Virus record (IMG/VR): IMGVR_UViG_3300032242_001842 | Span: 1-22,490 of that record | DNA length: 22,490 bases | Strand: one strand, 5' to 3' | Origin: a virus | In this document: positions 40 through 21,100 of the stretch, one piece after another | How positions within the stretch are numbered: position 1 is the first letter of the stretch | Layout: each line of letters starts with the position of its first letter | Translations under genes and position numbers: made by a program | Notes under the pieces: model-generated | What the model was told of the DNA's origin: nothing | The model's database searches: none | What the model saw: the letters and a program-made list of their open reading frames with translations, nothing else

Positions 40-1128
40 TTACTGTCCTAAATCTATTGGGTTTTCTAATTCGGCCTGTAGATCGTCTGCGCCAAACTGT
101 ACTGACATATCTCCAGTTAAGTTTGTTGATATAACCACATCCGCAGAAATTGTTGGCGTTTCTTGTATCTGTGTAGTATATGTATACAAAGTATTTGCAT
201 TGGCATCTGTTGGTGTAGGTGTAACAACAACCTGTGCATACTTTTGTGTTGTAATATTTAAATATGAATCGAATGAGTAGCTTGAATTTGTCGTCAAACC
301 CACAATTGGTTTATTAGAAACAAAATTTCCGTTAATATTGGTTACAGTTAAAATCTTATTTATTGAGTCCCAATATGTAACTTTACCTGTCGCTATTGAA
401 GTTCCTAAAGAGAATCCTTGATATATCACTTCACCAATCTGGTAATCACCAAATCCACCGGTCGAAATCAACTTAAATTGTATTTGATTGTCCGGACTTA
501 TTTCATTGTAAATATTGGTAATTGAACTTGTGATATACGAGAAAGTTGAAGTAGAACCAAATATAAAACCTTTGACCGTAAAATTAAGTGTCCATATGAC
601 TAAACGCGGATCACCTTCTCTTGGACCTTCATATTGAATGTCCTGTGATGTGTTGTTTAATACGATAGGAATGTCTTTAGATATTCCCATTTCAGGTATT
701 AAATTCAACTTGATAGTATAATCAGGTGTAAAAAATGGTAGTATATGTTCGATAACTTGGGTACCATCTTCTATGTTTCTGACATACAGATATAAATTAA
801 AGTCAAAGTTATACGGTACTGGATTATACTGTGCAAGATTATTTGCATAGTTTTTAATGTTTGTGTTTTGTTTTCTTGATGCGTCATAACTAAACCCCGT
901 CATCTCATATGACATACGCGGTAAAGTCATTTGAACTTTTTTGTGTAGATCAGGATCGCCTTGTAGTCTTTGCACATATAATTCTTTTGGTGCATATGCA
1001 ATAGGAACAAGAAATCGTTCTTCTTCTGTTAGATCTAAATTATATCTAACTAAGGTTATGTTATTGAATAAGTCTCCAAACCCTACTATAAGTTTTCGTA
1101 TGACTCTATTATATTGTGGATTTGACAT
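40..1128 (-). CDS. gp15: Tail sheath stabiliser / tail terminator, T4 gp15-like
   Basis: This is the T4 gp15-type protein that caps the tail tube and sheath and joins the tail to the neck. Residues 1-192 follow the family: GFGDLFNNI (16-24), a VPIAYAPKE strand (41-49), LPRMSYEMTGFSYD (69-82), QYNPVPYNF (100-108), then HILPFF (128-133). A KDIPIVL strand (151-157) and a WTLNFTVKGFIFG segment (179-191) follow. T4 gp15 is about 270 residues, while this one has 362. The excess is a C-terminal extension holding a small beta module (about 232-290) that also occurs in the neighbouring gp14, then a Thr/Ala-rich tail. The ATG overlaps the gp14 stop by one base (TAATG), which implies translational coupling. 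Core assignment is firm; the role of the extension is unknown. Confidence 0.9.
   Translation of the reverse strand: MSNPQYNRVIRKLIVGFGDLFNNITLVRYNLDLTEEERFLVPIAYAPKELYVQRLQGDPDLHKKVQMTLPRMSYEMTGFSYDASRKQNTNIKNYANNLAQYNPVPYNFDFNLYLYVRNIEDGTQVIEHILPFFTPDYTIKLNLIPEMGISKDIPIVLNNTSQDIQYEGPREGDPRLVIWTLNFTVKGFIFGSTSTFSYITSSITNIYNEISPDNQIQFKLISTGGFGDYQIGEVIYQGFSLGTSIATGKVTYWDSINKILTVTNINGNFVSNKPIVGLTTNSSYSFDSYLNITTQKYAQVVVTPTPTDANANTLYTYTTQIQETPTISADVVISTNLTGDMSVQFGADDLQAELENPIDLGQ
259..435 (-). other. Beta module in gp15 shared with gp14
   Basis: gp15 residues 232-290 contain E233-V-I-Y-Q237, W253 and L260-T-V-T-N-I-N-G-N-F269. gp14 has the same landmarks at residues 198-258. The distances from W to L (7) and from L to F (9) are the same in both proteins. 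It lies after the part of gp15 that matches T4. Confidence 0.7.
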
Positions 1129-2009
1129 TATAGACTACCAAATGAATTTGTTTTTGATGTATCTATAATAGGTGTTGCAGAACTCTGTATGTATTTGTTA
1201 TCGTATACTTCATATTTAACATTAACATTCATTGGATCATATGTTGCAAGCGTATATTGTGCGTTACTCGATGATCCAATAAGAGCATAACCACCCGAGA
1301 ATACTCCTGTTATATTTGTAACCGACAATGTATTCGCCAACGGATACCATGTTTGTACTGTGGCAGAAGCATATGCATTTGCATACGTATTGTCGCTAGA
1401 TTGGAATACAATTTCTGAAGTTGCAAACATACCTGTTCCTGATCCAACATTGAGTGTAAGTGTGTATGCGGAATCTGTGACAACGATATCGATATCTGGA
1501 ACTCCTGTAGAAATAACTTCTTGTGAATACTTGAATTTCTCTAATTCTAATTCATAGAAGTAAGCTACTTTTCTACCTAATGTAAAGAAGTCTTTGGTCG
1601 AATTTGTAAATTTAATTTCAAATAATTCACCGGTACCTCTTAGAAAAGGAACATATATGAGATCGCCTTCCCTAGGTCTTGTAAAAGTGTTTTGTGGAAC
1701 TCTTTCAGAAAATGATCTTTTGGATACAATAACATTAACATTATTCTTAATCTCTAGACCAAATTTGGAAAAGAATTCTCTCTCACCCATATATTCAATA
1801 GAATTAGAAAGATAAAATTCTAATGGAAATGCGGTTGAAAACTTCTTAACAGGATCTTCACCATACAATAAATCTCTAGCCGCATCGTTATCATTAGGCA
1901 AATAATAGGCATCGAATCCCATTATCTTGATGGATTCTACAATTAAATCCTCAACAAGCCTTTGCTCATTTTTTGAGTTATAGTTATTAAAAAAAGGATT
2001 AGTTGCCAT
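1128..2009 (-). CDS. gp14: Neck protein, T4 gp14-like
   Basis: T4 gp14 forms part of the neck connecting the DNA-filled head to the tail. Residues 1-165 match the family: an N-terminal NPFFNNY, LVEDLIVESIKIMGFDAYYLP (18-38), LLYGEDPVKKF (47-57), then FFSKFGLEIKNNV (79-91). REGDLIYVPF (113-122) and a segment rich in aromatic and acidic residues ending near KFKYSQE (158-164) complete the match. T4 gp14 is about 256 residues and this protein has 293. Residues from about 198 to 258 form the beta module also found in gp15. The start follows the gp13 stop by one base, and no strong Shine-Dalgarno is visible, so it probably relies on coupling to gp13. Confidence 0.9.
   Translation of the reverse strand: MATNPFFNNYNSKNEQRLVEDLIVESIKIMGFDAYYLPNDNDAARDLLYGEDPVKKFSTAFPLEFYLSNSIEYMGEREFFSKFGLEIKNNVNVIVSKRSFSERVPQNTFTRPREGDLIYVPFLRGTGELFEIKFTNSTKDFFTLGRKVAYFYELELEKFKYSQEVISTGVPDIDIVVTDSAYTLTLNVGSGTGMFATSEIVFQSSDNTYANAYASATVQTWYPLANTLSVTNITGVFSGGYALIGSSSNAQYTLATYDPMNVNVKYEVYDNKYIQSSATPIIDTSKTNSFGSL
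1236..1418 (-). other. Beta module in gp14 shared with gp15
   Basis: gp14 residues 198-258 carry E199-I-V-F-Q203, W221 and L228-S-V-T-N-I-T-G-V-F237, followed by a G-S-S-S-N-A-Q-Y strand. This parallels gp15 residues 232-290. It follows the T4-like core of gp14 and looks like an added domain. Confidence 0.7.
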
Positions 2010-2010
2010 T

Positions 2011-2784
2011 TTAGTTCATGTACATTTCGAGAGGCGCACCATAATTCATATCCATTTCTTTCTCCAGCCTTTCTATTTCTGTCGTGGCTTCTTCATAAAT
2101 CTTATCACCATTCAGCATAACACCACCAGGCAATTGAATGCCTTGAAATTTCTTTAAATTTTCACCCCATGTTCTTTTAATCAATACCGTGGCATATTCT
2201 TTCAACCAACGGTCATTCCATACCAGTGTGTACACATTGGGATTGATTAGTGCATATGCTTCGGCAATTACAACGGTACCAACAGGAGCTTCTGATGCAC
2301 CCCAAGCCCAATCAATATAAAGACGTTGCATATGTCTTTGAAAACGAATAGGGACTTCACCTGTGAACATTAGTTCTAACGAACGCAAGTGTTGTTGAGT
2401 TAGTGTGTAGTTGATATATGAAGCGGAGGTGAAGTCGTACAGTTCGTTGAGGCGCAACTGGTATCTAAGGTCAAACATATTAACAGTTGCCGATGAATCG
2501 GACACTGGAAATATGCGTGTGATGCCGGCTATTTCAATACTATTATTTTGGGAGTCAACAGCTTGTGTGGCATCCAAATATTTGTTCGCCACATCGTCCG
2601 GCGTAACATGATGAATCCAATATACTTTTTGTAAACCATCAAAATGATAATCTTGCCAGTATTGTAGTGCATCATCAATACGGTCTTGTACTTGCGTATC
2701 TTCTACGTTAATATCAACGACAGGCGCACCAAGTCTACGGAGACAATAGTTGGTAAAATCGGTTCTATTATTTAATGTTGCCAT
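2011..2784 (-). CDS. gp13: Neck protein, T4 gp13-like
   Basis: T4 gp13 is the head-completion or neck protein that works with gp14. The 257 residues follow the family closely: RTDFTNYCLRRLGAPVVDINV (7-27), DRIDDALQYWQDYHFDG (34-50), then a middle region with FDLRYQLRLNELYDF (104-118). The diagnostic C-terminal stretch follows: LVWNDRWLKEYATVLIKRTW (187-206) and NLKKFQGIQLPGGVMLNG (209-226), with an acidic helix EATTEIERLEKEM (232-244). It is shorter than T4 gp13 (about 309 residues). It sits first in the 13-14-15 block, 27 bases after the S74 fibre gene, with a late-promoter-like AATAAATA in that gap and only a weak GGA ribosome site. Confidence 0.92.
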   Translation of the reverse strand: MATLNNRTDFTNYCLRRLGAPVVDINVEDTQVQDRIDDALQYWQDYHFDGLQKVYWIHHVTPDDVANKYLDATQAVDSQNNSIEIAGITRIFPVSDSSATVNMFDLRYQLRLNELYDFTSASYINYTLTQQHLRSLELMFTGEVPIRFQRHMQRLYIDWAWGASEAPVGTVVIAEAYALINPNVYTLVWNDRWLKEYATVLIKRTWGENLKKFQGIQLPGGVMLNGDKIYEEATTEIERLEKEMDMNYGAPLEMYMN

Positions 2785-2808: not shown

Positions 2809-2816
2809 TATTTATT
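2809..2816 (-). promoter_or_regulatory. T4-late-promoter-like octamer ahead of gp13
   Basis: On the minus strand this reads AATAAATA followed by C, one mismatch from the T4 late -10 consensus TATAAATA. It overlaps the end of the fibre gene and stands 24 bases from the gp13 start, a plausible promoter-to-gene distance. The same octamer occurs in the gap before the 661-residue fibre. AT-rich DNA produces such octamers by chance (one also lies inside gp15), so this is a candidate only. Confidence 0.45.
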
Positions 2817-5226
2817 TTGAAAAAGATGCAACCATTTGCTTTAATTCGTCTATTTGCTTTTGTTGTTCTTTGATAGCTTGAATTAGTAATGGTACCAACT
2901 TTTCGTATTGAACCGTTTTATAGTTTTCACCCGACTTGCTGTATTCTGTTCCATCTTCATTCTTTGCGATATCAAATGGTGCAGGAACAACAACTTGAGG
3001 AAGAACTTTTTCTATTTCTTGTGCAATAACACCGACCTGTTCTTTATCATCCGTATACCCATATTCAGCCGCTGTTTCGTTTGATTCAAAAGTAACACCA
3101 GATATTTGCATAACTTTGCTAATTGCATTGTTAATCGGTGTAATATTCTTTTTTAACCTTCTATCAGAAAAATAGGCAGTAATGTTATTGGTAGCACGAA
3201 TTTCACCAGTAGTACCTGATGCAGCAGTACCAACACCAAACGAACCAAATTGTACCGAAGATGTTGTTGCAATTGATTGTGGTGTGGAGAGAGTGACTGA
3301 ACCTGTTGAACCCGAAACAGAAATTTGGTTCGTAGTACCCGTTAGACCAGTAACACCAGCATTTGAAATCGTCAGAGCGGCCGATCCGTTATATGTTGTA
3401 CCTGACGACAATGAAAGACCTGTACTGACTGTGAGCGCATTGGCAACCGAACCTGCCGAGCCGGTATAACCTGTGCAGTTTGTCAATGTTCCAGATGCTG
3501 GAGTACCCAATGCAGGTGTTGTAAATGTGGGTGATGTTAATGTCACACCAGCAAAACTGGTTACGGTAGAACCAAGAGATACTGATGTAGAACCAATAGT
3601 TACCGATGAATTAGCTAACGCCGAATTTTGAACTGTAGCTGAGCCAGTTACATATGTGGCCGAATTAGCAGAACCTGTGGTATTCTGGTTTAAAGTTGGA
3701 AACGTACAATTGGTTAAAGTACCTGATGCTGGAGTACCCAATGCAGGTGTTGTAAATGTAGGTGATGTTAGCGTTACGCCAGCAAAACTAGATACAGTAG
3801 AACCAAGAGATACTGATGTAGAACCAATAGTTAAGGATGAATTGGTTAATGCGCCATTCGGAATACTGGTTAATGATGCACCAGATCCGGAGAATGTACC
3901 TGCTGTCAGAACGCCGGTTGATGGGTTGTATGTGGCAGTACCATAAAGAATAGATGTTCCGTTATTTACAGCAATAGTATAGTTAGCGTTAGTTGAACTT
4001 AATGTTGTGGTTACAGAACCAGCAGTCAACGATGCAGCGGTACCATTTAAACCTGCTCCGGATCCAAAATGAGATCCAAAAAAACCTGTGTTGGAAGTTA
4101 CTGCGTTGGCAGACAAATTGCCTGTTGCTGCGTTAAATGATAAAGCAACGTTTGCGTTGGCCGCTAAGTTACCAGTTAACGCATTAATTAATACAGGATA
4201 AAATGTGCCCGTTGTGACTGTTGTAACCGGAATAGTGTTACCTACGTTTGCATAGGCACTGCTAGCCGATGTTACGGTAACGGAACCACCTAGTGAAACT
4301 GATGTTCCATTGATTGTTATACTATTCGCGGCCCATATTGGAGCACCAGATCCACCGGACACCAAAATCTGGCCAGCGGTACCCGTGGCAGTAGACCATG
4401 CAAAGGCAGTACCAGTTCCATAAGCGATTGCACCAGCAGTTGGTGTTGCTGTGGAGTTGGTGCCGCCATTACCAATAGGCAATGTACCTGTCACACCCGT
4501 TGTCAAAGAGATACTTGTTAGACCGGCACCGGATCCAAAATGAGATCCAAAGAAACCTGTGTTGGAAGTTACTGCGATGGCGGACAAGATACCTGTAGCA
4601 GCATTTAATGAAAGAGCTACGTTAGCACTTTGAGATAAAGTTCCAGTCAAAGCGTTAACAAGTACAGGATAATATGTTCCTGTCGTTGCCGTGGTTATTG
4701 GTGTTCCTATTGTTATTGAACCACCTAGTGAAACTGATGTTCCATTAACAGTTATACTATTGGCTGCCCATATTGGAGATCCAGATCCACCAGATACTAA
4801 AATTTGTCCTGAAGTACCTGTTGTTGAAAATGCGTATGCTGTTCCTGTTCCATATGCAAGAGCACCGGCTGTAGGTGTAGTTGTGGTATTTGTTCCACCA
4901 TTTCCTATTGGAAGTGTACCTGTTACACCGGTCGTTAGTGATATGCCGGTTAAACCAGAACCTGAACCAAAATGAGGTCCATAAATTCCGGTACTTGCTG
5001 TGATGGATGATACTGCTAAGTTTCCCGTTATCGTACCTGAAGTTGTATTGATATTGTTTGCAACTACGTTACCGGACGACCATACGTTACCAGAAACACC
5101 AATACCACCGGACACAATCAAAGCGCCAGTTAAGTTTGATGTTGCTGTATTGGCACCTAAAACGAACAACCTAGTGTTGACGTTTGCGCTACCGTATATT
5201 GTTGTTCCTGATTGTAGTTTTGCCAT
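2812..5226 (-). CDS. Tail fibre with C-terminal S74 self-cleaving chaperone (804 aa)
   Basis: This is a repeat-built fibre ending in a peptidase S74 (endosialidase-type intramolecular chaperone) domain. The domain begins about residue 687 with S-D-R-R-L-K. S687 and K692 occupy the Ser/Lys dyad positions (Ser + 5) of the family, in which cleavage before the Ser releases the chaperone after the fibre trimer folds. VGVIAQEIEKVLP and YKTVQYEKLVPLLIQAIKE follow, ending in a short coiled coil. The shaft is low-complexity Gly/Ser/Thr/Ala beta repeats: a roughly 150-residue unit between 80 and 393 (GTLPIGNGGTN, GQILVSGGSG, TGTFYPVLINAL), and a shorter pair at 460-585 (PTFTTPALGTPASG). The N-terminus (TSNLTGALIVSGGIGVSGNV) resembles a segment of the 576-residue fibre. 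Expected on the virion tail or side fibres; the receptor is unknown. No strong ribosome site is seen. Confidence 0.9.
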   Translation of the reverse strand: MAKLQSGTTIYGSANVNTRLFVLGANTATSNLTGALIVSGGIGVSGNVWSSGNVVANNINTTSGTITGNLAVSSITASTGIYGPHFGSGSGLTGISLTTGVTGTLPIGNGGTNTTTTPTAGALAYGTGTAYAFSTTGTSGQILVSGGSGSPIWAANSITVNGTSVSLGGSITIGTPITTATTGTYYPVLVNALTGTLSQSANVALSLNAATGILSAIAVTSNTGFFGSHFGSGAGLTSISLTTGVTGTLPIGNGGTNSTATPTAGAIAYGTGTAFAWSTATGTAGQILVSGGSGAPIWAANSITINGTSVSLGGSVTVTSASSAYANVGNTIPVTTVTTGTFYPVLINALTGNLAANANVALSFNAATGNLSANAVTSNTGFFGSHFGSGAGLNGTAASLTAGSVTTTLSSTNANYTIAVNNGTSILYGTATYNPSTGVLTAGTFSGSGASLTSIPNGALTNSSLTIGSTSVSLGSTVSSFAGVTLTSPTFTTPALGTPASGTLTNCTFPTLNQNTTGSANSATYVTGSATVQNSALANSSVTIGSTSVSLGSTVTSFAGVTLTSPTFTTPALGTPASGTLTNCTGYTGSAGSVANALTVSTGLSLSSGTTYNGSAALTISNAGVTGLTGTTNQISVSGSTGSVTLSTPQSIATTSSVQFGSFGVGTAASGTTGEIRATNNITAYFSDRRLKKNITPINNAISKVMQISGVTFESNETAAEYGYTDDKEQVGVIAQEIEKVLPQVVVPAPFDIAKNEDGTEYSKSGENYKTVQYEKLVPLLIQAIKEQQKQIDELKQMVASFSK
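3179..3240 (-). repeat. 62-bp exact repeat, copy 1 (S74 junction)
   Basis: This stretch is identical base for base to 13115-13176 in the 1731-residue fibre. It encodes the segment immediately before the S74 cleavage site (FGVGTAASGTTGEIRATNNI). The flanking S74 codons differ at many positions between the two genes. Confidence 0.9.
3472..3849 (-). repeat. Internal duplication in the 804-aa fibre
   Basis: Residues 460-507 and 536-585 repeat the series IGSTSVSLGSTV, SFAGVTLTSPTFTTPALG and TPASGTLTNCT. At DNA level 3494-3528 and 3725-3759 are identical over 35 bases, which suggests duplication or conversion within the gene. Confidence 0.8.
4048..4989 (-). repeat. Large tandem beta repeat in the 804-aa fibre shaft
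   Basis: A unit of about 150 residues is present roughly two and a half times between residues 80 and 393. Landmarks of each copy are FGSxFGSGxGL, LTTGVTGTLPIGNGGTN, GQILVSGGSG, PIWAANSIT, NGTSVSLGGS, then TGTxYPVLxNALTG and LNAATG. Its modules also occur singly in neighbouring fibres. Confidence 0.8.
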
Positions 5227-5241
5227 AGTTTTATATTTACT

Positions 5242-5904
5242 TTAAAAAGAAATGCCTTTAGTCTGGAAGAAATCATAATCTTCTTTCGAATATGATATTA
5301 TATAATCGATCTCTTCTTGAGTAATTGCGGGATCATTGGGTATGTATTGCTTTTCATTTAATATATTTAGTGCATAATCACTGATGCCTAATTCAGCCGC
5401 AATTGATGCCACTCCCGTGGAAAATTGACTATACGGCAATAACTCTATATTATCAAATGCTAGCCAATCTCGTTGAGGGTATAATAATGGCCAATTAGGG
5501 GATACTTTTTCCTTAAAATCGCTTTCTAAGAAATCTATAATTTTAATTCTCGCCAAAGCGTCTTGTATTTCTGTAGACAAACTCTCAAAAGAATCTCGAT
5601 TTAAATGAGAGATTTTAAATTGATTGCCATAAAAATAATTTAACATCTTCACTAGATGACCAGGAGTAGTTCTTATATAATTCCACATAGATAACATTCG
5701 CTCTACGGGTTCTCTGTAAAAACAAAACATTTTAGTTGTGCTTAAATTTGGGTTGTACCTCTGCACAAAATGATTAACATTCATATGATTATGAATACAC
5801 TGATCAAATGTGAATGTGGTATTTTGAAAACAATCAACCAAACTAGTTGTGCCAGTTTTGGGATTTAAAAATACAGCAACTGATTTTTCAGCGGAGTAAA
5901 TCAT
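5242..5904 (-). CDS. Sulfotransferase-like enzyme
   Basis: A 220-residue protein with the layout of carbohydrate sulfotransferases, which move sulfate from PAPS to a sugar hydroxyl. Residues 14-21, N-P-K-T-G-T-T-S, after a short beta strand (VAVFL), match the 5'-phosphosulfate loop. Residues 58-74, ending C-F-Y-R-E-P-V-E-R-M-L-S-M-W, match the 3'-phosphate-binding motif (R64, R69, S72). YPQRDWL (142-148) and a C-terminal SKEDYDFF (206-213) also fit the family. There is no signal peptide or membrane segment, so it should act in the cytoplasm of the infected cell. Its start overlaps the preceding 75-residue gene by four bases (ATGA), with GGAG just upstream, so the two are translated together. 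It lies between an adhesin-like gene and an S74 fibre. The fold assignment is fairly sure. The substrate (host surface glycan, phage fibre or a metabolite) is unknown. Confidence 0.78.
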   Translation of the reverse strand: MIYSAEKSVAVFLNPKTGTTSLVDCFQNTTFTFDQCIHNHMNVNHFVQRYNPNLSTTKMFCFYREPVERMLSMWNYIRTTPGHLVKMLNYFYGNQFKISHLNRDSFESLSTEIQDALARIKIIDFLESDFKEKVSPNWPLLYPQRDWLAFDNIELLPYSQFSTGVASIAAELGISDYALNILNEKQYIPNDPAITQEEIDYIISYSKEDYDFFQTKGISF

Positions 5905-6132: not shown

Positions 6133-7686
6133 TTAATAGTAGCTGATCACTACTGCTCCTGTTAGTCCATTATCCCCACCATCGGTATATGTACCATAAT
6201 TACCTTTACTAGTTAAGTTTTTAATAACTCTACCAGCGGAACCATATCTTGCACCATAATAACCAACGACTCCTAAATTAGGTGTGTACATTATTCCATT
6301 AGGAGGAGTTTGACTACTGTTTGGTGCGGTGTAAGAATAAGCGATTCCCGTAGTATTGGTGCCGACAATATTTGCATCAGTACCGCCAGTTGCTGTGCCA
6401 CCTGCAGCAGCAGTAAATCCTGATCCAATACCGCCACCGCCACCACCCGCAGTCATAGTTGTAATGGTAGCTGTACCACTTGATACTGTTGATGTATTTC
6501 CTGCAAGTGCTGAAAAATTGCCACCACCAAGTCCTCGACCAGTACCGCCACCACCCACAGTAATTGATAGAGTTAATCCTGCTAAAGAAGCAGCATTAGT
6601 GAGAATAGTTCTACAATATCCTCCAGCACCTGGATCAGTTCCGCCAGATGACGTATATGACGGAGAGTTGCCTCCCGTATCTTCATAAACCTGCGCGCCA
6701 CCTCCCCCACCGCCCCACGCTTCTATCACCATAACACTATATCCAGCAGGTATCGTGTGCGTATATGTATTTTGTATCTGCCTTGCGGTTGTTACATAAA
6801 TTGTGGTGTTTGATGGGATTCCTGTTACTTCGTCAAATATACCAGCAATTTGCATTGAACCAGTATTTGTTAACCTACTCGCAATACTACCGCCATTAAT
6901 AGTTAACTCGTCTAACTCATTATAGACTACTTCATTTTGAGTGATTCTTGATTGAGTTGTAGGTGTTGACTGTGTATATGGCGAATTGAGAGAAAATCCT
7001 GGCAGAGGAGATCCAAGTAATGGAGATTTTATATTTGTCGCACCTAATGCAGCGTCATAAAATCTATTATAATAATCTGTGACATTAAGTAAAAAAATAG
7101 TATTTGCTAACTTACTAAGAACAGAAGTAGGCGGTGTGAAATTGCCTGTATACACTACTGATGTGGTTAATCTAAAATCTTTTATATACCCGTTATACCA
7201 ATACCCCAAACCAATGGTAGTATTATACCCAAATGTTCCTATTAAATTAAAATTAAAAGCAGTGTTATCTGTATAAGTTGCTGATGAAACTCCATTAATA
7301 TAAAGAGTATTTGTTGTTCCACTTCTCACCCAAGCCAGATGAGCCCATTGACCTGGGATAACAGAAGTTCCAACATATTGAAATACTTGCGTTCCATTAT
7401 TATAGACACCCACAGATCCTTTTGGACCAAGATTTTCATTAAGTCTAAATATTTGTAAATTACTGTCAATGTCACTTGATGCAACCATCATCTCAGCATA
7501 ACTTAAAGGATAGACCCAAGTTTCAAGAGTAAAGTCGCCCGACACTGTTGCAATAGTAGTTGACGGTTTATAATACATTGTAGTATCAAATGCCAAACTG
7601 CCGCTATATAATGCAGTTTCATCAAACGGAATATTTGAGTTTGTTAGCAAATTTCCAGTGCTTTTTAAACTCGTTACAACAGGCAT
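6133..7686 (-). CDS. LamG-like and glycine-rich adhesin/tail-fibre protein (517 aa)
   Basis: Residues 25-202 look like a LamG/concanavalin-type jelly roll, a fold that often binds sugars: a SLAFDTTMYY strand, GDFTLETWVYP (50-60), GQWAHLAWVRSG (112-123), NTLYINGV (126-133), IGLGYWYNGYIKDFRL (158-172). A linker follows. Residues 305-517 are a glycine-rich domain that starts with TIPAGYSVMVIEAWGGGGGG (311-330) and carries further Gly runs (GGGGTGRGLGGG, GGGGGG). This is typical of glycine-rich phage tip domains and recalls the polyglycine-helix adhesins at T-even fibre tips. It ends in a beta strand (GAVVISYY) with no S74 chaperone. It is probably a receptor-binding tip protein. The start is two bases after the 576-residue fibre stop, with GGA seven bases before the ATG. 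Confidence 0.82.
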   Translation of the reverse strand: MPVVTSLKSTGNLLTNSNIPFDETALYSGSLAFDTTMYYKPSTTIATVSGDFTLETWVYPLSYAEMMVASSDIDSNLQIFRLNENLGPKGSVGVYNNGTQVFQYVGTSVIPGQWAHLAWVRSGTTNTLYINGVSSATYTDNTAFNFNLIGTFGYNTTIGLGYWYNGYIKDFRLTTSVVYTGNFTPPTSVLSKLANTIFLLNVTDYYNRFYDAALGATNIKSPLLGSPLPGFSLNSPYTQSTPTTQSRITQNEVVYNELDELTINGGSIASRLTNTGSMQIAGIFDEVTGIPSNTTIYVTTARQIQNTYTHTIPAGYSVMVIEAWGGGGGGAQVYEDTGGNSPSYTSSGGTDPGAGGYCRTILTNAASLAGLTLSITVGGGGTGRGLGGGNFSALAGNTSTVSSGTATITTMTAGGGGGGIGSGFTAAAGGTATGGTDANIVGTNTTGIAYSYTAPNSSQTPPNGIMYTPNLGVVGYYGARYGSAGRVIKNLTSKGNYGTYTDGGDNGLTGAVVISYY

Positions 7687-12768: not shown

Positions 12769-15700
12769 TTACTTCTTCTTTAGTTCTTCGATTTCGGCCT
12801 TCAGTTCTTTGATGGCTTCGATCAATAATGGTACCAATTTTTCGTAATGAACTGTTTTATAGTTCTCACCCGATTTACTATATTGAACACCATCAACATA
12901 TTCCGTGTCAAATGGTGCAGCAACCACAACTTCTGGCAACACCGCTTCAACTTCTTGTGCAATAACACCAACTTGAGTTCTTTTATCGGTGTAACCGTAC
13001 TGTTCTGCAAGTTCATTTGAATTGAATTTTACACCAGATATTTGCATAACTTTATCAAGAGCATTGGATATTGATGTAATATTTTCTTTTAGTCTCTTGT
13101 CAGAATAGTACGCGGTAATGTTATTGGTAGCACGAATTTCACCAGTAGTACCTGATGCAGCAGTACCAACACCAAAAGATCCGTGTTGTACCGAAGATGA
13201 TGTTGCAATATCTTGAGGCAGACTTAGTAAAACATTACCCGTTGAACTATTTGCAGTAACCTGATTTGTAGTACCTGTTATTGATGTTACGCCACCACTC
13301 GCTCCACTAGAGGCCGCAGTGACACGACCATATGTATCTACGGTTAAGTTTGCATTGGTGTATGAACCTGCTGTTACGACACCCGATTTAAGGTTCAATG
13401 TTACTGCTGTATTGCCGTAATATGTTGTGCCGCTTGACAATGAAAGTGTTGAACCAATTGTCAGAGCGTTAGCAACTGAACCGGCTTGTCCGCCTGTTGC
13501 TATAGGCGTATAACCTAATGCCGTCGTAATTACAGATGAGGTAATATACGAAGATGTAATGTAACCAGATGGATTGGTTGCGTTATATGGTGTAAAACCT
13601 AAACCAGCAACAATATTGGCGTTTGTCAAATAACTCGATGTAATGTAACCAGATGGATTGGTTGCGTTATATGGTGTAAATCCAAGTGCCGTTGTTACCT
13701 GACTTGAGGTGATCGATGCACCGGTAGATAGTGCAGTTGCAGTACCGTTGAACGTCACACCACCAGAAGTTTGTGTAATAGAACCTACAGAAGCACTTGC
13801 GGCGTTCATGAAGTTTAATATTGTTGTGCCGTCTGTTACAGGCAAGAAAGTCATACCGTATTGACTGGCGCCGCCTGTATAATTAACAACTGCTGCTGAA
13901 GTACTACCAGATACTTGAGATGCACCACCTATTAATGCTGTTGTGGCATTTAGTGTTACAATCTGACCAAGTGAAGTCAAACTTGAACCAGTAACACCTG
14001 ATGCCAATGTTGCACCTGTTAATGTTCCGGCGGCCGCGGTCACAGTAGCAGAACCACCAAGACTTATTGAAGTTCCGTTTACAGTGATCGAAGAATTCGC
14101 TAATGCATTATTAGGTACTGAACCAATTGTGATGTTGCCGCCGGATAAGTTTGTTAGATTTGCACCCGATACTGCACCGAACGTTGATGACCAAGTTCCT
14201 GATGTTATTGTTCCAACAGAAGTTAAACTTGAACCAGTAACACCCGATGCCAATGTGGTGCCGGTTAATGTTCCTGCTGCAGCTGTTACAGTAGCAGAAC
14301 CACCGAGACTTATTGAAGTTCCGTTAACGGTAACTGAACTGTTAGTCAAAGCAGAGTTAGGTACCGATGCCGCAGTTATATTGGCACCCGCAATGCTTGT
14401 TAGTGCCGCGCCATTACCTGAGAATGTTCCTATCAATGTTGCTGGAGTTAACGATGCATAATTTACCGTGTTACCTGTTGGTGCAGTCGCCAAATTCTTA
14501 AAGAGATAGAAACTACCTGCATTAGTTCCACCCGAACCTTCTCGAATTAAACCGTGATATCCAGCACTTGATAAACCGTAAAAACCAATATCAATTACAT
14601 CTGACGTAGAATTGTTGGCGGCCAGTTGTATTAACGACTGAGTTGTTTGCAATGTAGAAGTATTAACATACTCAGCTGTTCCTGAAACTCTCAGGTTACC
14701 AGAAATTGATACGTCATTCTGGAATATTGTGGCACCGGTAAATAATCCACCTGTATTAGCCTTGTTATATGCTGATATTGCGTAAGTATTAACAGCATTA
14801 GATGAATTATAACTAGATGCAGCTAACGTATTAGCCGCATTTGCTTGGTTAAATGCAGGAGTTACAAGGGTTCCTGCATTATTGGCCAAAGCATAGGCCG
14901 ATATTGCGTAAGTATTAACGGCATTTGCTGTTGCATAACTTGATATTGCGTATGTATTAACAGCGTTGGACGAATTATAACTGGATGCAGCCAAAGTGTT
15001 TGCAGCATTAGCCTGGTTAAATGCAGGAGTTACAAGTGTTCCAGCATTATTTGCTACGCTATATGCTGATATTGCGTATGTGTTAACGGCATTTGCTGTA
15101 TTGTAACTAGAGATTGCATACGTGTTAACGGCATTAGAAGATGCATATGCAGAAATTGCAAAGGTATTAACCGCGTTGGCTGTGTTATAACCAGATATTG
15201 CATACGTATTTGTTGCGTTTGCTGTTGCATATGCAGATATTGAATATGTGCTAACTGCGTTAGAGGATGCATATGCAGAAATTGCAAAGGTATTAACCGC
15301 GTTGGCTGTGTTATAACTAGCTATTGAATATGTGCTAACCGAGTTGGCTGTAGAATACGAAGAATACGAATAAGTGTTAACAGAATTTATGTTTGTATTC
15401 TGTAAATTATTTACCTGTTGTAAATAATACACAGCATTAGATGTTGCAACATTTGTTGATGATGCTGTTGTTACAGAATCAGATCGATATTCATCTGTTA
15501 GTATTCTATAAAAAATTCCTGTATTAACATCGTTTAGATCCCAATACAAGTTTGATTCTGTCCAACGAATATATGCATTTCCTGCGCCGGTATTTCTATA
15601 TGTACCAATTAGAGTTGTCTGGTTTGGTGTTGAAGTACTCAAAGTGAAATTAGGAGTATTGTAGACTGTATTACCATTTATGGTAAAGTTTCCAGATACA

Positions 15701-17964
15701 GAAACGTTACCAAATGCAGCAGTTATTCCAGTTGCAGTTAACGTTGTGCCTGTCAGTGTAAGGTTTGTACCTGTTATTGCTTGACCAGAAATTGAAGTAT
15801 TTGACACTAACGAGTTTACTACAGCAGTCGAGGCAACACTCAGTGTTGATGTGTTTACACCAGTATTACTTTGTAAATTATTCGTGTAGATTGTTCCACC
15901 ATTAGTATGCGAGGTAGAAATTATCGACACAGTATTCATCGATGTTGCAGTTACCGATGACGTATTTACGGTTGTGTTTGCTTGTAGTATATTGGTATAA
16001 ACAGTACCAGTATTAAAAATTGTTGTCGAATTTAACGTTGGTGTGCTAACCCAAGCATTTGATGTTACGTTCGTTGATACAATGTTTGATATAGTTGCAT
16101 TGCTTGACGTTAACAAACCAGTATTGAAATGACTTGTTGAATATACCGTTTGGGTACTGACCCAAGTATTTGATGTTACGTTTGACGATACGACATTGGC
16201 TATGGTTGCATTATTAGCAGTCAACTGCGATGTATTAACCGAAGTATTTGATTGTAGTGTAGCAGTATAAATGGCACCTGTATTATTTACTGTCGTAGAA
16301 TTTACAAGAGGAGTGCCAACAGAAGTATTTGCTGTCACGACTCCTGTAATCACACCAGAAGTTACCGTTGCATTTGTAGCGGTGACCAATGGTGTATTGA
16401 CATTGGTGTTTGCTTGAACAAAGTTTGCGTAAGCGGTACTAAGAGTGTTTAATGTATTTGTTGATAGAGTTACGGTGTTGATTGACAGGTTTGCTTGTAC
16501 CAAGTTTGCTGTTAGTGTTCCAGCAACCGTAAGATTAGCAACAGACATTGAAACGTTGGCAACAATATTATTAGCATATACCGTGCCAGTATTGTTTATT
16601 GTTGTTGAGTTGACCAATGTTGTATTAACGTTGGTGTTCGCAGTTAATGCGTTTGTAATAACAATGGCTGATGCAGTAACGGCCGGTGTTGTAATGTTGG
16701 TGTTTGCCACCAAGTTGTTTGTATAAGCAATGCCGGTATTATTTAATGTAGCGCTATCTACTGTTCCAGCATTGACAATATTGTTAGCCTGCAATATGTT
16801 TGTATATGTGGTGCCTGTATTGTCTATTGCGTTAGTTATTATCTGTGGCGTCTGCACGTTTGCATTAGCCGTTAATACGTTAGTAATTAAATTGTAGGTA
16901 ACTGTTGCGTTTTGTGCAGTAACCAACGGTGTGTTAACGTTTGTATTTGCTTGAACTGTATCTGTAATCACACCAGAAGTTATCGTTGCATTTGTGGCAG
17001 TAACCAACGGTGTATTAACATTGGTGTTTGCGCGCAAGTTATTTGTATAAGCAGTACCAGTATTGTTTAGTGTTGTTGAATTTACGAGAGGAGTATTGAC
17101 CGTAGTGTTTGATGTTATTACTGCGGCAATTAAACCAGTAGAGATAGTCGCATTGTTGGAGGTTAATAAACCGGTATTTGCGTTTGTTGCTTGTAGGGTT
17201 GCTGTTGAAGTCGCACCCGTATTTGTAATAGTGGTAGAATTTAATGTTCCTGTAGAAACAGAACTGTTGGCAGTTAAGTTATTTGTAATGATATTGTACT
17301 GTACTGTTGCGTACTGCGATCCAAAGTTTGGAGAATTCATTACAGTGTTTGATGTTATGCCAACCGATGCAAACACGTTTTGAGAAGCAAACAAACTGTT
17401 TGTTGTAACAAAGTTATTTGCTTGTACAGACGCAGCAAATGATTGTTGAGGAGTTACAATGTTACCAGCAACAAATAAGTTTTGTGCTATTGTGGCGCTA
17501 TTAGCAACAACGGGATTACTATAAACATATAGTGGTCCTTGCGCTAGTGTATTGCCTGAAAATATTGTGACGCCATTTACGGTAACATTACCTACAAACA
17601 ATGAATTATTTGATACGTTTAGTCCTGTACCAGAACCCGTCAGATACAATGTACCGTTTACGTTGGCCTGTCCAGAATTAACCAGACCCAATGTTGTATT
17701 AGAAAAGTATACTTGTCCACCAACCAATAAGTTATTCTGAATTTGTCCGTACGATCCAATACCCGTAGATACTAAACCACCACCAATCGTGGCGTTGTTA
17801 CTAATTTGCAGACCTAGTGTTGAGTCAGCAAGTACTAAAGTTCCTACTGGTTTAGTGTAACGTGCAGCCGCAAAGGCATTATTCTCAAAAATCAGAGAAT
17901 TGGTTGCAACGACCCAATCGCCAAACGTATTGGCATTGCTTATAGTAGAGTATGTGTTAGCCAT
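12769..17964 (-). CDS. Giant tail fibre with C-terminal S74 self-cleaving chaperone (1731 aa)
   Basis: The largest complete gene here. Order of parts: an N-terminal segment (1-230) with beta-prone turns (NNATIGGGLVSTG, NVNGTLYLTGSGTG); about 17 copies of a roughly 27-residue repeat (233-721); a short IRWTESNLYWDLND module (799-812); fifteen 14-residue repeats (860-1069). Then come an IELAANN-type module (1089-1175), paired TNSSVTVNGTSISLGGSATV and TLASGVTGSSLTS repeats, GFTPYNATNPSGYITSS repeats typical of T4 gp37-like shafts, and an S74 domain from S1621. S1621 and K1626 in S-D-K-R-L-K-E-N-I fit the Ser/Lys dyad; YKTVHYEKLVPLLIEAIKE and a terminal coiled coil follow. The start overlaps the preceding small gene by eight bases, with AAAGG upstream. 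Probably a long tail fibre, matured by self-cleavage. Confidence 0.9.
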   Translation of the reverse strand: MANTYSTISNANTFGDWVVATNSLIFENNAFAAARYTKPVGTLVLADSTLGLQISNNATIGGGLVSTGIGSYGQIQNNLLVGGQVYFSNTTLGLVNSGQANVNGTLYLTGSGTGLNVSNNSLFVGNVTVNGVTIFSGNTLAQGPLYVYSNPVVANSATIAQNLFVAGNIVTPQQSFAASVQANNFVTTNSLFASQNVFASVGITSNTVMNSPNFGSQYATVQYNIITNNLTANSSVSTGTLNSTTITNTGATSTATLQATNANTGLLTSNNATISTGLIAAVITSNTTVNTPLVNSTTLNNTGTAYTNNLRANTNVNTPLVTATNATITSGVITDTVQANTNVNTPLVTAQNATVTYNLITNVLTANANVQTPQIITNAIDNTGTTYTNILQANNIVNAGTVDSATLNNTGIAYTNNLVANTNITTPAVTASAIVITNALTANTNVNTTLVNSTTINNTGTVYANNIVANVSMSVANLTVAGTLTANLVQANLSINTVTLSTNTLNTLSTAYANFVQANTNVNTPLVTATNATVTSGVITGVVTANTSVGTPLVNSTTVNNTGAIYTATLQSNTSVNTSQLTANNATIANVVSSNVTSNTWVSTQTVYSTSHFNTGLLTSSNATISNIVSTNVTSNAWVSTPTLNSTTIFNTGTVYTNILQANTTVNTSSVTATSMNTVSIISTSHTNGGTIYTNNLQSNTGVNTSTLSVASTAVVNSLVSNTSISGQAITGTNLTLTGTTLTATGITAAFGNVSVSGNFTINGNTVYNTPNFTLSTSTPNQTTLIGTYRNTGAGNAYIRWTESNLYWDLNDVNTGIFYRILTDEYRSDSVTTASSTNVATSNAVYYLQQVNNLQNTNINSVNTYSYSSYSTANSVSTYSIASYNTANAVNTFAISAYASSNAVSTYSISAYATANATNTYAISGYNTANAVNTFAISAYASSNAVNTYAISSYNTANAVNTYAISAYSVANNAGTLVTPAFNQANAANTLAASSYNSSNAVNTYAISSYATANAVNTYAISAYALANNAGTLVTPAFNQANAANTLAASSYNSSNAVNTYAISAYNKANTGGLFTGATIFQNDVSISGNLRVSGTAEYVNTSTLQTTQSLIQLAANNSTSDVIDIGFYGLSSAGYHGLIREGSGGTNAGSFYLFKNLATAPTGNTVNYASLTPATLIGTFSGNGAALTSIAGANITAASVPNSALTNSSVTVNGTSISLGGSATVTAAAGTLTGTTLASGVTGSSLTSVGTITSGTWSSTFGAVSGANLTNLSGGNITIGSVPNNALANSSITVNGTSISLGGSATVTAAAGTLTGATLASGVTGSSLTSLGQIVTLNATTALIGGASQVSGSTSAAVVNYTGGASQYGMTFLPVTDGTTILNFMNAASASVGSITQTSGGVTFNGTATALSTGASITSSQVTTALGFTPYNATNPSGYITSSYLTNANIVAGLGFTPYNATNPSGYITSSYITSSVITTALGYTPIATGGQAGSVANALTIGSTLSLSSGTTYYGNTAVTLNLKSGVVTAGSYTNANLTVDTYGRVTAASSGASGGVTSITGTTNQVTANSSTGNVLLSLPQDIATSSSVQHGSFGVGTAASGTTGEIRATNNITAYYSDKRLKENITSISNALDKVMQISGVKFNSNELAEQYGYTDKRTQVGVIAQEVEAVLPEVVVAAPFDTEYVDGVQYSKSGENYKTVHYEKLVPLLIEAIKELKAEIEELKKK
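13115..13176 (-). repeat. 62-bp exact repeat, copy 2 (S74 junction)
   Basis: Identical to 3179-3240 in the 804-residue fibre, in the same orientation about 9.9 kb away. It encodes the residues just before the S74 cleavage site. The base after the repeat (a here, c in the other copy) and the base before it (g here, a there) both differ. Confidence 0.9.
13553..13680 (-). repeat. 84-bp tandem duplication in the 1731-aa fibre
   Basis: 13553-13596 and 13637-13680 are identical over 44 bases, offset by 84. They encode FTPYNATNPSGYITSS-type shaft repeats like those of long tail fibres. Confidence 0.8.
14440..14700 (-). other. IELAANN beta module, copy in the 1731-aa fibre
   Basis: Residues 1089-1175 carry SLIQLAANN, VIDIGFYGLS, HGLIREGSGG, FYLFKNLA and NTVNYASL. 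This matches residues 235-328 of the 661-residue fibre. It is slightly shorter in the middle, lacking a NTNTSATNSN-like insert. Confidence 0.8.
14758..15387 (-). repeat. Fifteen tandem 42-bp repeats (14-residue units)
   Basis: Residues 860-1069 are exactly fifteen 14-residue units with consensus NAVNTYAISAYATA. Two heptads per unit suggest a coiled coil. Some units are almost identical in DNA: 15140-15191 equals 15266-15317 over 52 bases, an offset of three units. A four-unit block containing NNAGTLVTPAFNQA and NAANTLAASSYNSS is itself repeated. Copy number may vary between related phages. Confidence 0.92.
15802..17268 (-). repeat. Degenerate 81-bp repeats (27-residue units)
   Basis: Residues 233-721 are a series of units, mostly 27 residues with shortened ones of 22 or 26 and a few longer. 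Each opens with N-T-x-V-N-T-P or a variant, passes through an N-A-T-I-T or N-N-T-G-T-x-Y-T-N core and ends in L-x-A or V-x-S. The regular Asn/Thr/Val pattern fits a stacked beta structure. The units are too diverged for exact DNA repeats of great length. Confidence 0.8.
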
Positions 17965-18185: not shown

Positions 18186-21100
18186 TTATATTCCTGTTCC
18201 TGGTGGTAGAGCAATAGCTCGCAAGTTCTCAATGATAGGAGGGTTTGTATTGTCATTGGTTGCCATGACAAGTTTAACAGCAAACTGTATAAAGTTATTG
18301 TAAGTAACACCAGCCGTATTGGTATACGATATGTTATTATTTGCCACACCACTCAAGAATATACCAGGCGCACATTCATACTCAATAATATTTGTTGGAC
18401 TCGTTGAAAACACGTTCTGGTTTGTTACTTGCGTCATCAACTGCCAATATTGGTTATCAAATAAATCTGTATCACTTGAACTAATTATTTTATAGTAAAC
18501 GTAGACACTAGTTCCTGGTGGTTTATATGCAGAATAGTAAACTCTTAGATCACCAGAATCATTATTAACTGGCATTACAACCTTTTTGGTCACATATCTA
18601 GCCAAACCGTTGCCGCCATGTTGTGATGTTTCGCCAATGACAGAGACTATTGCGTTTGCATTACCTGATCGTGTTGCAGCGTCTGTGATAGTGATGGTTG
18701 GTGTCGTTACATAACCAGCTCCTGGTGATACAACATACACTCCAATTATTGCGCCATTGGCCACGTTAGCGGCAAGTACTGCACCTGAACTACCAATATC
18801 AGGATTACTAATGGTTACAGAAATATTGTTTGCATTGTAACCGGATCCTGTATTTGCAACAGAAATAACAGCATTACTGATTCCCATATTGTTAACAATA
18901 TTACGAATATTATACAGAGTAATTCCGTCGTCAGAAATTATAGGACTAACATTAGGATCTGTTGATGATAGTGTCGCTGTCATAGCAAATGAATTTGGTA
19001 TTGTTGATATCAAAGATCTTTCGCCCAGACCATCATTCAATAATATATTTCCTGGATTTGGAGAACCATATTTTCCTGGTGTAACACTATACGGTCCAAC
19101 TGGAATATTTCCATTGGCCAATATTGAACTGTATTGATACGATATGCCTGTCTGTGATGGTACAAAATCAGTTGTCGTGATGTTGTATGCATCTGACGGC
19201 ATTGTTGTATTATAATTTCCGTATAAATTTGTCGCGCAGTTCGCATCTAATCCTTGCTGAATAGCGTGGTGATGTATCAATTTTCTGTGCGGCAGTCCTT
19301 GAGGAATACCAAAAACGATTGAAGGCGCTACCTTTGTATTGAATACACACTTATCCATTACAAACATTAAATCGGATGTTTGATCTGCCGTCCATGTAAT
19401 TGAATTCTGAGATTCAAACAAAGCACCAACATAAGGCGCAGCACCTATTTTGCTTGTTGATGTTGGGTTTGCGTCGGTTGGATAAGCTTTGGCTGTTGAA
19501 GCTATAGCTAAGGAATTTTGTTGACCATAATATACTGTATAATCGGGTGAACTTGCTTTGAGAATAAATGCATATAGAACGCCAGATTGTACATATACAG
19601 GAGCACTAAATTTAAATTCTGTCCAAGTTGTTGAATCCAAATAATGTGGTGTAGTAGAAGTTTTTATTTGGCTAGTTTTTAAAGTCACAGATGAATAACT
19701 TAATGCAGGGCCTGATGGAATTCCATTTTGTGTATTTGTAATAAACAATGTTACAGGATAATTTGATGTAGGTTTTGTTGCAAAAAATACTTTGATTGAA
19801 TTCAAAAATACACCATTAGGATAATTTAATTTATCAATAATAAATGATTGAGCAATTGGATCCCATGGCGTATAGGTTGTAATTGTACTAATTTTCTGTA
19901 CAGGTGATTGTGCAACAGATGTAAATTTGGTTGCTGCAGAATCAATGGAAGGCGCAAATTCTAAAGATTGTGATGTTGTTGCAAGACCTGATGCGGTAAA
20001 GGTTGACTGTGCGTAACACGTTGCAGTTGTTGGATCTGTTGCGACTGTTCGGTTATCAACACGGAAAATTCTCTCTCCTGTTTGAAATGTATTTGGTGGT
20101 ATGTTGAAAATACCTACCAAATTTCCACCCTCATCTGTTGATATACTAGGCAGACCTGTTCCTTGTGATATGGCACCAGCAACTGTTGTAATTGTTCCCG
20201 TTAAATTATATTGAGAACTTATATCACCCAAAGAACTATTGTGTCCTAATGATATACAAACAGGAGAATCTAGCGTAGCAATCTTGTTGACAGAATCGTA
20301 TGCTGTAACATTTGCCGTGTAAGTAAATTGGGAAGGAATTGCCACTATTGTAGTTGTGTATTTTGTATACTTATATGATCCTGTTTTAAAAGATATTTTT
20401 CCACCAGTTCCTGCTAAACCGGAATAAGAATTTCGGTTACCGCCAGCTGAATTTATTGGAGTTCCTAAATCTGTAGTTGATTTAGGAACTACGGTTGCTG
20501 TTGTAATTTTCTGTTGCGTTACAAATGTAGACGTTACTGAAATTTTTGCACCAACATAGTAGTTGGTAATTTCAGATGCTTTTTGATCAAGAGCAATCTT
20601 AGTTACGCCAGTAAAATAAGCACCACCTTTATACATAACTATTTCATATGATCCATCAGACTTTGTTGTTCCTGGAGGATTAAGTGAACTAAAAGCAACC
20701 TCTTCATTTAAATCATATATGACAAGTGCATGACCAGAAGCATAACCCGATGGACTTCCTGTTACTGCCCACGAAATGGTGTATTGTGTTCCAGCAACAA
20801 AAGAGTAAGTAAATGTTGCGCCAGTTTTGTGTATTGCAGAACTTGTTGTGAATACAGAAGAACCGTTTATTGATATCGTTGTGTGGTTTGTACCTGTTCC
20901 AGTATTTGACACAACAAATGTGTGTATTCCAGTATATGAAGGTATCCAATAAAAAGTGGCTGAATGTGAAGATGTCCGTTTTAGATCACCCCAAATGCCG
21001 TGACTATTTAAGAAAGTACCCCAGCGATTTGGATCTCTAACTTTATAAAATCTAAAACCAGAACCACCCGTTGTTGTGTAAGTATTACCAACAGCAGTTA

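Follow-up and report, generated by a model that had tools for sequence, protein, structure and literature searches.

A predicted beta-barrel module common to the neck protein gp14 and the tail terminator gp15 of an uncultured T4-like phage

The window analysed here, a 22.5-kb stretch of DNA from an uncultured T4-like phage, has gp13, gp14 and gp15 next to one another at its left end, all three on the minus strand. The gp14 gene (1128-2009, minus strand) encodes 293 aa, of which aa 1-175 (1485..2009, minus strand) form a neck or head closure (Hc2) core matching phrog_460 and the Pfam family T4_neck-protein (PF11649; aa 3-175, E = 1.4e-30, 107 bits against a curated cut-off of 25), with T4 gp14 as the best PDB sequence match (E = 9e-22). 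The gp15 gene (40-1128, minus strand; 362 aa) has a tail terminator or sheath stabiliser core at aa 1-195 (544..1128, minus strand), matching T4-gp15_tss (PF16724) over aa 6-211 (E = 5.7e-61, 206 bits, curated cut-off again 25) and, as best PDB sequence match, T4 gp15 (E = 1.6e-19). On these matches we identify gp14 as the T4 neck protein, its core profile scoring over the cut-off and its gene lying between gp13 and gp15, and gp15 as the T4 tail terminator by a core profile likewise over the cut-off. The adjoining gp13 gene (head-tail adaptor Ad2; 2011..2784, minus strand; phrog_211, E = 3.5e-41) has no insert in the window.

The initial annotation had proposed that gp14 and gp15 carry one additional beta module past their T4-like cores, and the segments it named do align when gp15 is compared with gp14 by BLASTP (E=5e-7). 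Profiles of 57 gp14 modules and 54 gp15 modules align over 69 columns (hhalign, 99.5%, E = 4.5e-23); a profile of gp14 modules only gives the window's gp15 51.1 bits (at most 11.7 in 5,000 shuffles), and one of gp15 modules only gives the window's gp14 41.5 bits (at most 11.3 in 5,000). Together with AlphaFold2 models, profile matches place the module at aa ~182-261 of gp14 (1227..1466, minus strand; E = 3.4e-27) and aa ~215-292 of gp15 (253..486, minus strand; E = 7.3e-32 at 262-483). The annotated position after the cores stands, though the module is somewhat longer than had been described (gp14 184-258, gp15 215-292). The reported identity of W-to-L and L-to-F spacing was recovered as well: W-x6-L and L-x-V-T-N-I-x-G-x-F are present in both proteins (WYPLANTLSVTNITGVF / WDSINKILTVTNINGNF) and absent from all other ORFs of the window. 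No third copy was found in the window, where the next-best profile score was 4 bits, and a "weaker echo" noted in the 1432-aa DUF4815-type protein (VTAYDSVNKIATL) does not rise above chance (2.9 bits; 79 of 2,000 shuffles equal or better). No Pfam family covers the module across its members (single-member matches only, best E = 0.0017), and the module profile matched no PDB sequence. By sequence, the two segments are homologous copies of a single domain of ~75 aa.

Could they instead belong to the normal gp14 and gp15 cores and resemble one another by chance? T4 gp14 and gp15 likewise have C-terminal extensions past the core, but the Pfam cores stop before the modules, the module profile finds no sequence match in T4, gp15 exists without the module, and unrelated virion proteins carry the same domain; we regard this explanation as very improbable. 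Alignments with relatives and T4 show that the conserved tip of gp14 (aa 263-293; 1131..1223, minus strand) comes after the module and ends with an N-[SP]-F-G motif, comparable to ESSPFDND in T4 gp14. In gp15, alignments and AlphaFold2 indicate a segment with two more strands past the module (aa ~298-325; 154..237, minus strand).

AlphaFold2 models of the C-terminal parts, built from family alignments of 57 (gp14) and 39 (gp15) sequences, predict six strands for both modules, with identical order and register: 184-192, 200-204, 212-222, 227-234, 242-245 and 251-256 in gp14, and 215-220, 234-237, 246-254, 259-267, 275-277 and 286-292 in gp15. High model confidence is found mainly in the module in both models (pLDDT of most module blocks 86-92 in gp14 and 90-98 in gp15). 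The models were compared through shared PDB matches, and alignment end points on 8apf_C1, 1nrk and 3qtg_A give a consistent gp14-to-gp15 offset of 31-32 residues, with an hhalign offset of 32. The predicted folds of the two regions therefore agree both in strand order and in the solved barrels that they resemble. Since the two halves of the module are weakly alike (hhalign 69.6%), the six-stranded (3+3) barrel may have arisen by internal duplication.

The best solved-structure match of the gp14 module is residues ~760-846 of T4 gp7 (5iv5, 5hx2; KP1-variant homologue 9f4a), the chain being taken as gp7 from its length of ~1,030 residues and the baseplate titles of the entries. Over residues ~758-846 of the gp7 chains, Z is 8.2, 7.8 and 7.4 (rmsd 2.2-2.7 over 76-79 residues); the next unrelated structure, at Z 5.7, falls below these T4-type gp7 rows. 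Among the listed structure matches of the gp15 model gp7 is absent. A common arrangement of strands can suffice for a Z near 8 between the predicted module and T4 gp7. Cyanophage gp7 (P-HM1) holds the module at sequence level, whereas T4 gp7 has no significant sequence match to it; T4 gp7 and the Methylophilales-type gp7 give only a weak collinear alignment (E = 3e-4, probability only 38%). Both the gp14 and gp15 models also align with the six-stranded barrels of EF-Tu and eIF2-gamma domain 3 and of YgfZ (Z ~4.3-5.7). These likenesses to barrels of elongation-factor and aminomethyltransferase type are weak and their functions unrelated, and probably reflect only a common barrel arrangement. 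Ig-like domains are promiscuous phage virion domains, but the structures matched by the module are six-stranded barrels, not Ig folds.

The module is widespread in gp14 and restricted in gp15. It is present in gp14 at 80 of 80 loci of the window's clade and at all 80 marine cyanophage loci, where the C-terminal module of cyanophage gp14 (PHROG 460, head closure Hc2) is the same module in the same protein and position. Unlike the window, these cyanophages have a gp15 without it. Of the 71 complete gp15s in the window's clade, 70 have the module; outside the clade none of 75 complete gp15s does, these gp15 data coming from loci found through gp14 (a gp15-based locus search gave only two distant loci). 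The one exception in the clade, L072, has a complete gp15 in which the flanks join cleanly and the post-module segment is continuous with the core. Because this gp15 lacks the module while the 70 others have it, we consider the module a discrete domain. A cyanobacterial host was also sought through psbA, which was found neither in a 177-kb relative nor in seven shorter ones (S-PM2 gave the positive), an absence that is not decisive.

Its range extends well beyond the neck. When the gp15 module was used in tblastn, cyanophage gp14 and gp7 were found, and 94 of 95 records were named as Synechococcus or Prochlorococcus phages or as cyanophages. A profile search of whole records located the module in gp8, in gp7-type baseplate proteins and in several giant virion proteins; a 1201-aa baseplate wedge protein has two copies. 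Matches of the module profile to PHROG families likewise went past neck proteins, with baseplate wedge, tail fibre and structural families among them; fold matches in BFVD to gp53 and tail sheath are leads only. These sequence data identify the module as a mobile domain of virion proteins that is not specific to the neck. The initial annotation had suggested a decoration particular to the head-tail joint, a view that finds no support, since gp8 of the baseplate, gp7-type proteins and further virion proteins have the module too.

How did two neighbouring neck genes come to hold it? In a tree of the modules (~75 columns, midpoint rooting), the gp14 and gp15 copies of the window's clade group together (support 0.96), with gp14 copies in a group of their own (0.99) and gp15 copies in another (0.72). 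The module would have been in gp14 before the split between the window's clade and the marine cyanophages, and the gp15 copy would have been derived from it later, in the ancestor of the window's clade. Because gp14 has the module in both clades, this is the simplest and most likely reading of the sequences. The copying event appears to be old, since the gp14 and gp15 copies of one genome resemble each other no more than copies taken from different genomes (identity 0.341 versus 0.345, p 0.89); this equality shows no signal of recent gp14-gp15 gene conversion. Mean identity is lower in the module than in the core for both gp14 (0.57 versus 0.81) and gp15 (0.53 versus 0.74).

The T4 structure suggests where the modules would lie in the particle. 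In T4, both gp14 and gp15 are hexamers (PMC12270204, PMC3004832), and residues 178-256 of gp14 lack order before docking of the tail and afterwards contact gp15 residues 203-245 (PMC12270204). These contact stretches map to gp14 from aa 163 and to gp15 from aa 194 in the window, a transfer for which sequence identity in the arms is low, and both modules start ~20 residues into the mapped segments, interrupting the C-terminal arms. A position at the head-tail joint, as had been proposed, is supported by homology because the modules interrupt the arms by which T4 gp14 and gp15 make contact (PMC12270204); the location in the particle is inferred from T4.

We favour, with some confidence, a reading in which the two are homologous copies of a mobile barrel that gp14 had first and gp15 later acquired from it, and which serves to brace or space the joint. 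Each would be one independently folding six-stranded barrel from a mobile set inserted into many T4-like virion proteins and, if gp14 and gp15 form hexamers as in T4, the gp14 and gp15 rings would bear six barrels each, which would surround the joint and stiffen the docked neck. The bracing or spacer role is the inferred part of this reading. Marine cyanophages and L072 have a working gp15 that lacks the module, which counts against this role; for the same reason the gp15 module is not essential there.

The same evidence allows plain decoration, in which the modules would be solvent-exposed, bind fibres, the host surface or glycans outside the particle, and have no role at the joint. Such binding to things outside the particle has been proposed for Ig-like virion domains. 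That the module diverges faster than the core fits decoration and bracing alike, and decoration would also accord with a module that can be missing from gp15 and recurs in many virion proteins. The modules, however, lie within arms whose T4 counterparts form part of the junction (PMC12270204), and no lectin or carbohydrate-binding family match was found for them. Nor was fibritin (Fibritin_C, PF07921) detected in the module-bearing phages examined: searches of the window, of the related genomes G001-G005 and of S-PM2, Syn1 and Melnitz-3, several of these records being fragments, gave no match, and T4 was positive. As T4 whiskers bind domain III of gp13 (PMC12270204), the suggestion that the module binds whiskers finds no support. 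Overall, we consider decoration without a joint role unlikely, though worth keeping in view.

A different role at the joint would be homotypic pairing, with the gp14 and gp15 modules binding each other as a direct head-to-tail fastener. The same domain on both partners of one interface, in corresponding arms, is what such pairing would look like, but marine cyanophages hold the gp14 copy only, L072 lacks the gp15 copy, and the two copies are not matched within genomes; we think it improbable. Slightly more doubtful still is its extended form, in which a collar of 6+6 gp14 and gp15 barrels locks head to tail and gp13 adds a third copy in some relatives. If true, the collar would be a junction fastener made from one mobile virion domain duplicated onto both faces of an interface. 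Close relatives with and without the gp15 module make a role at the joint directly testable.

Domain mosaicism is established for phage structural proteins (PMC10684548), and the module resembles the promiscuous virion domains described there in being a small beta domain found in functionally different virion proteins and gained and lost between relatives. It differs from them in having no Pfam family and in occupying both sides of one docking interface. The novelty lies in finding a defined barrel, one that no Pfam family covers, on both the gp14 and the gp15 side of the head-tail interface. In T4-like phages the shuffling of domains is thus not limited to receptor-binding proteins but reaches the joint itself, on head and tail sides. 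The module has been hidden in many separate PHROGs, each defined by its host protein.

Other inserts occur in the neck proteins of relatives. In several of them gp13 is ~335-349 aa long rather than ~260, because its N-terminal third contains a beta insert of ~75 aa (L205, 1588-2601, minus strand; also L049, L012, L035, L047/L048, L055 and L021/L022). Since this insert is weakly similar to the gp14/gp15 module, all three stacked neck proteins may carry a barrel in those relatives. The gp15 of P-RSM6 (L084) has a different insert at the module's site, the gp14 of P-SSM2 (L090) has extra repeats, and across L084, L090, L098 and L099 the gp14/gp15 arms contain a VGDEF..I-type domain or GSGY..P-type repeats. 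With other insert types in the same arms, these look like an insertion hotspot that accepts several different modules.

Elsewhere in gp14, aa 60-112 (window 1674-1832, minus strand) match Hfq chains (phmmer E = 0.0015; only 0.12 with the family profile). In T4, host Hfq recruited by gp14 serves as a genome plug (PMC12270204), and a ring fold common to the gp14 core and Hfq is a candidate worth a structural check.

Further along the window, aa 1206-1275 of the 1432-aa DUF4815-type protein (18660-18869, minus strand) match PHROG 460; we rejected this stretch as a copy of the module since, by eye, it is a different, GSGY..PTITI-type repeat. That repeat is a second recurring virion module, distinct from the gp14/gp15 barrel. 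A 220-aa protein with an NPKTGTTSL motif (5242-5904, minus strand) matches a PHROG galactose-3-O-sulfotransferase (E = 1.4e-4) and is under the Pfam cut-off; it is possibly a phage-encoded sulfotransferase among tail genes. Two fibre-like proteins (2812-5226 and 12769-17964, both minus strand) end in a Peptidase_S74 intramolecular chaperone domain, and a further protein (6133-7686, minus strand) combines an N-terminal Laminin_G_3 lectin-like domain with a glycine-rich C-terminal part.
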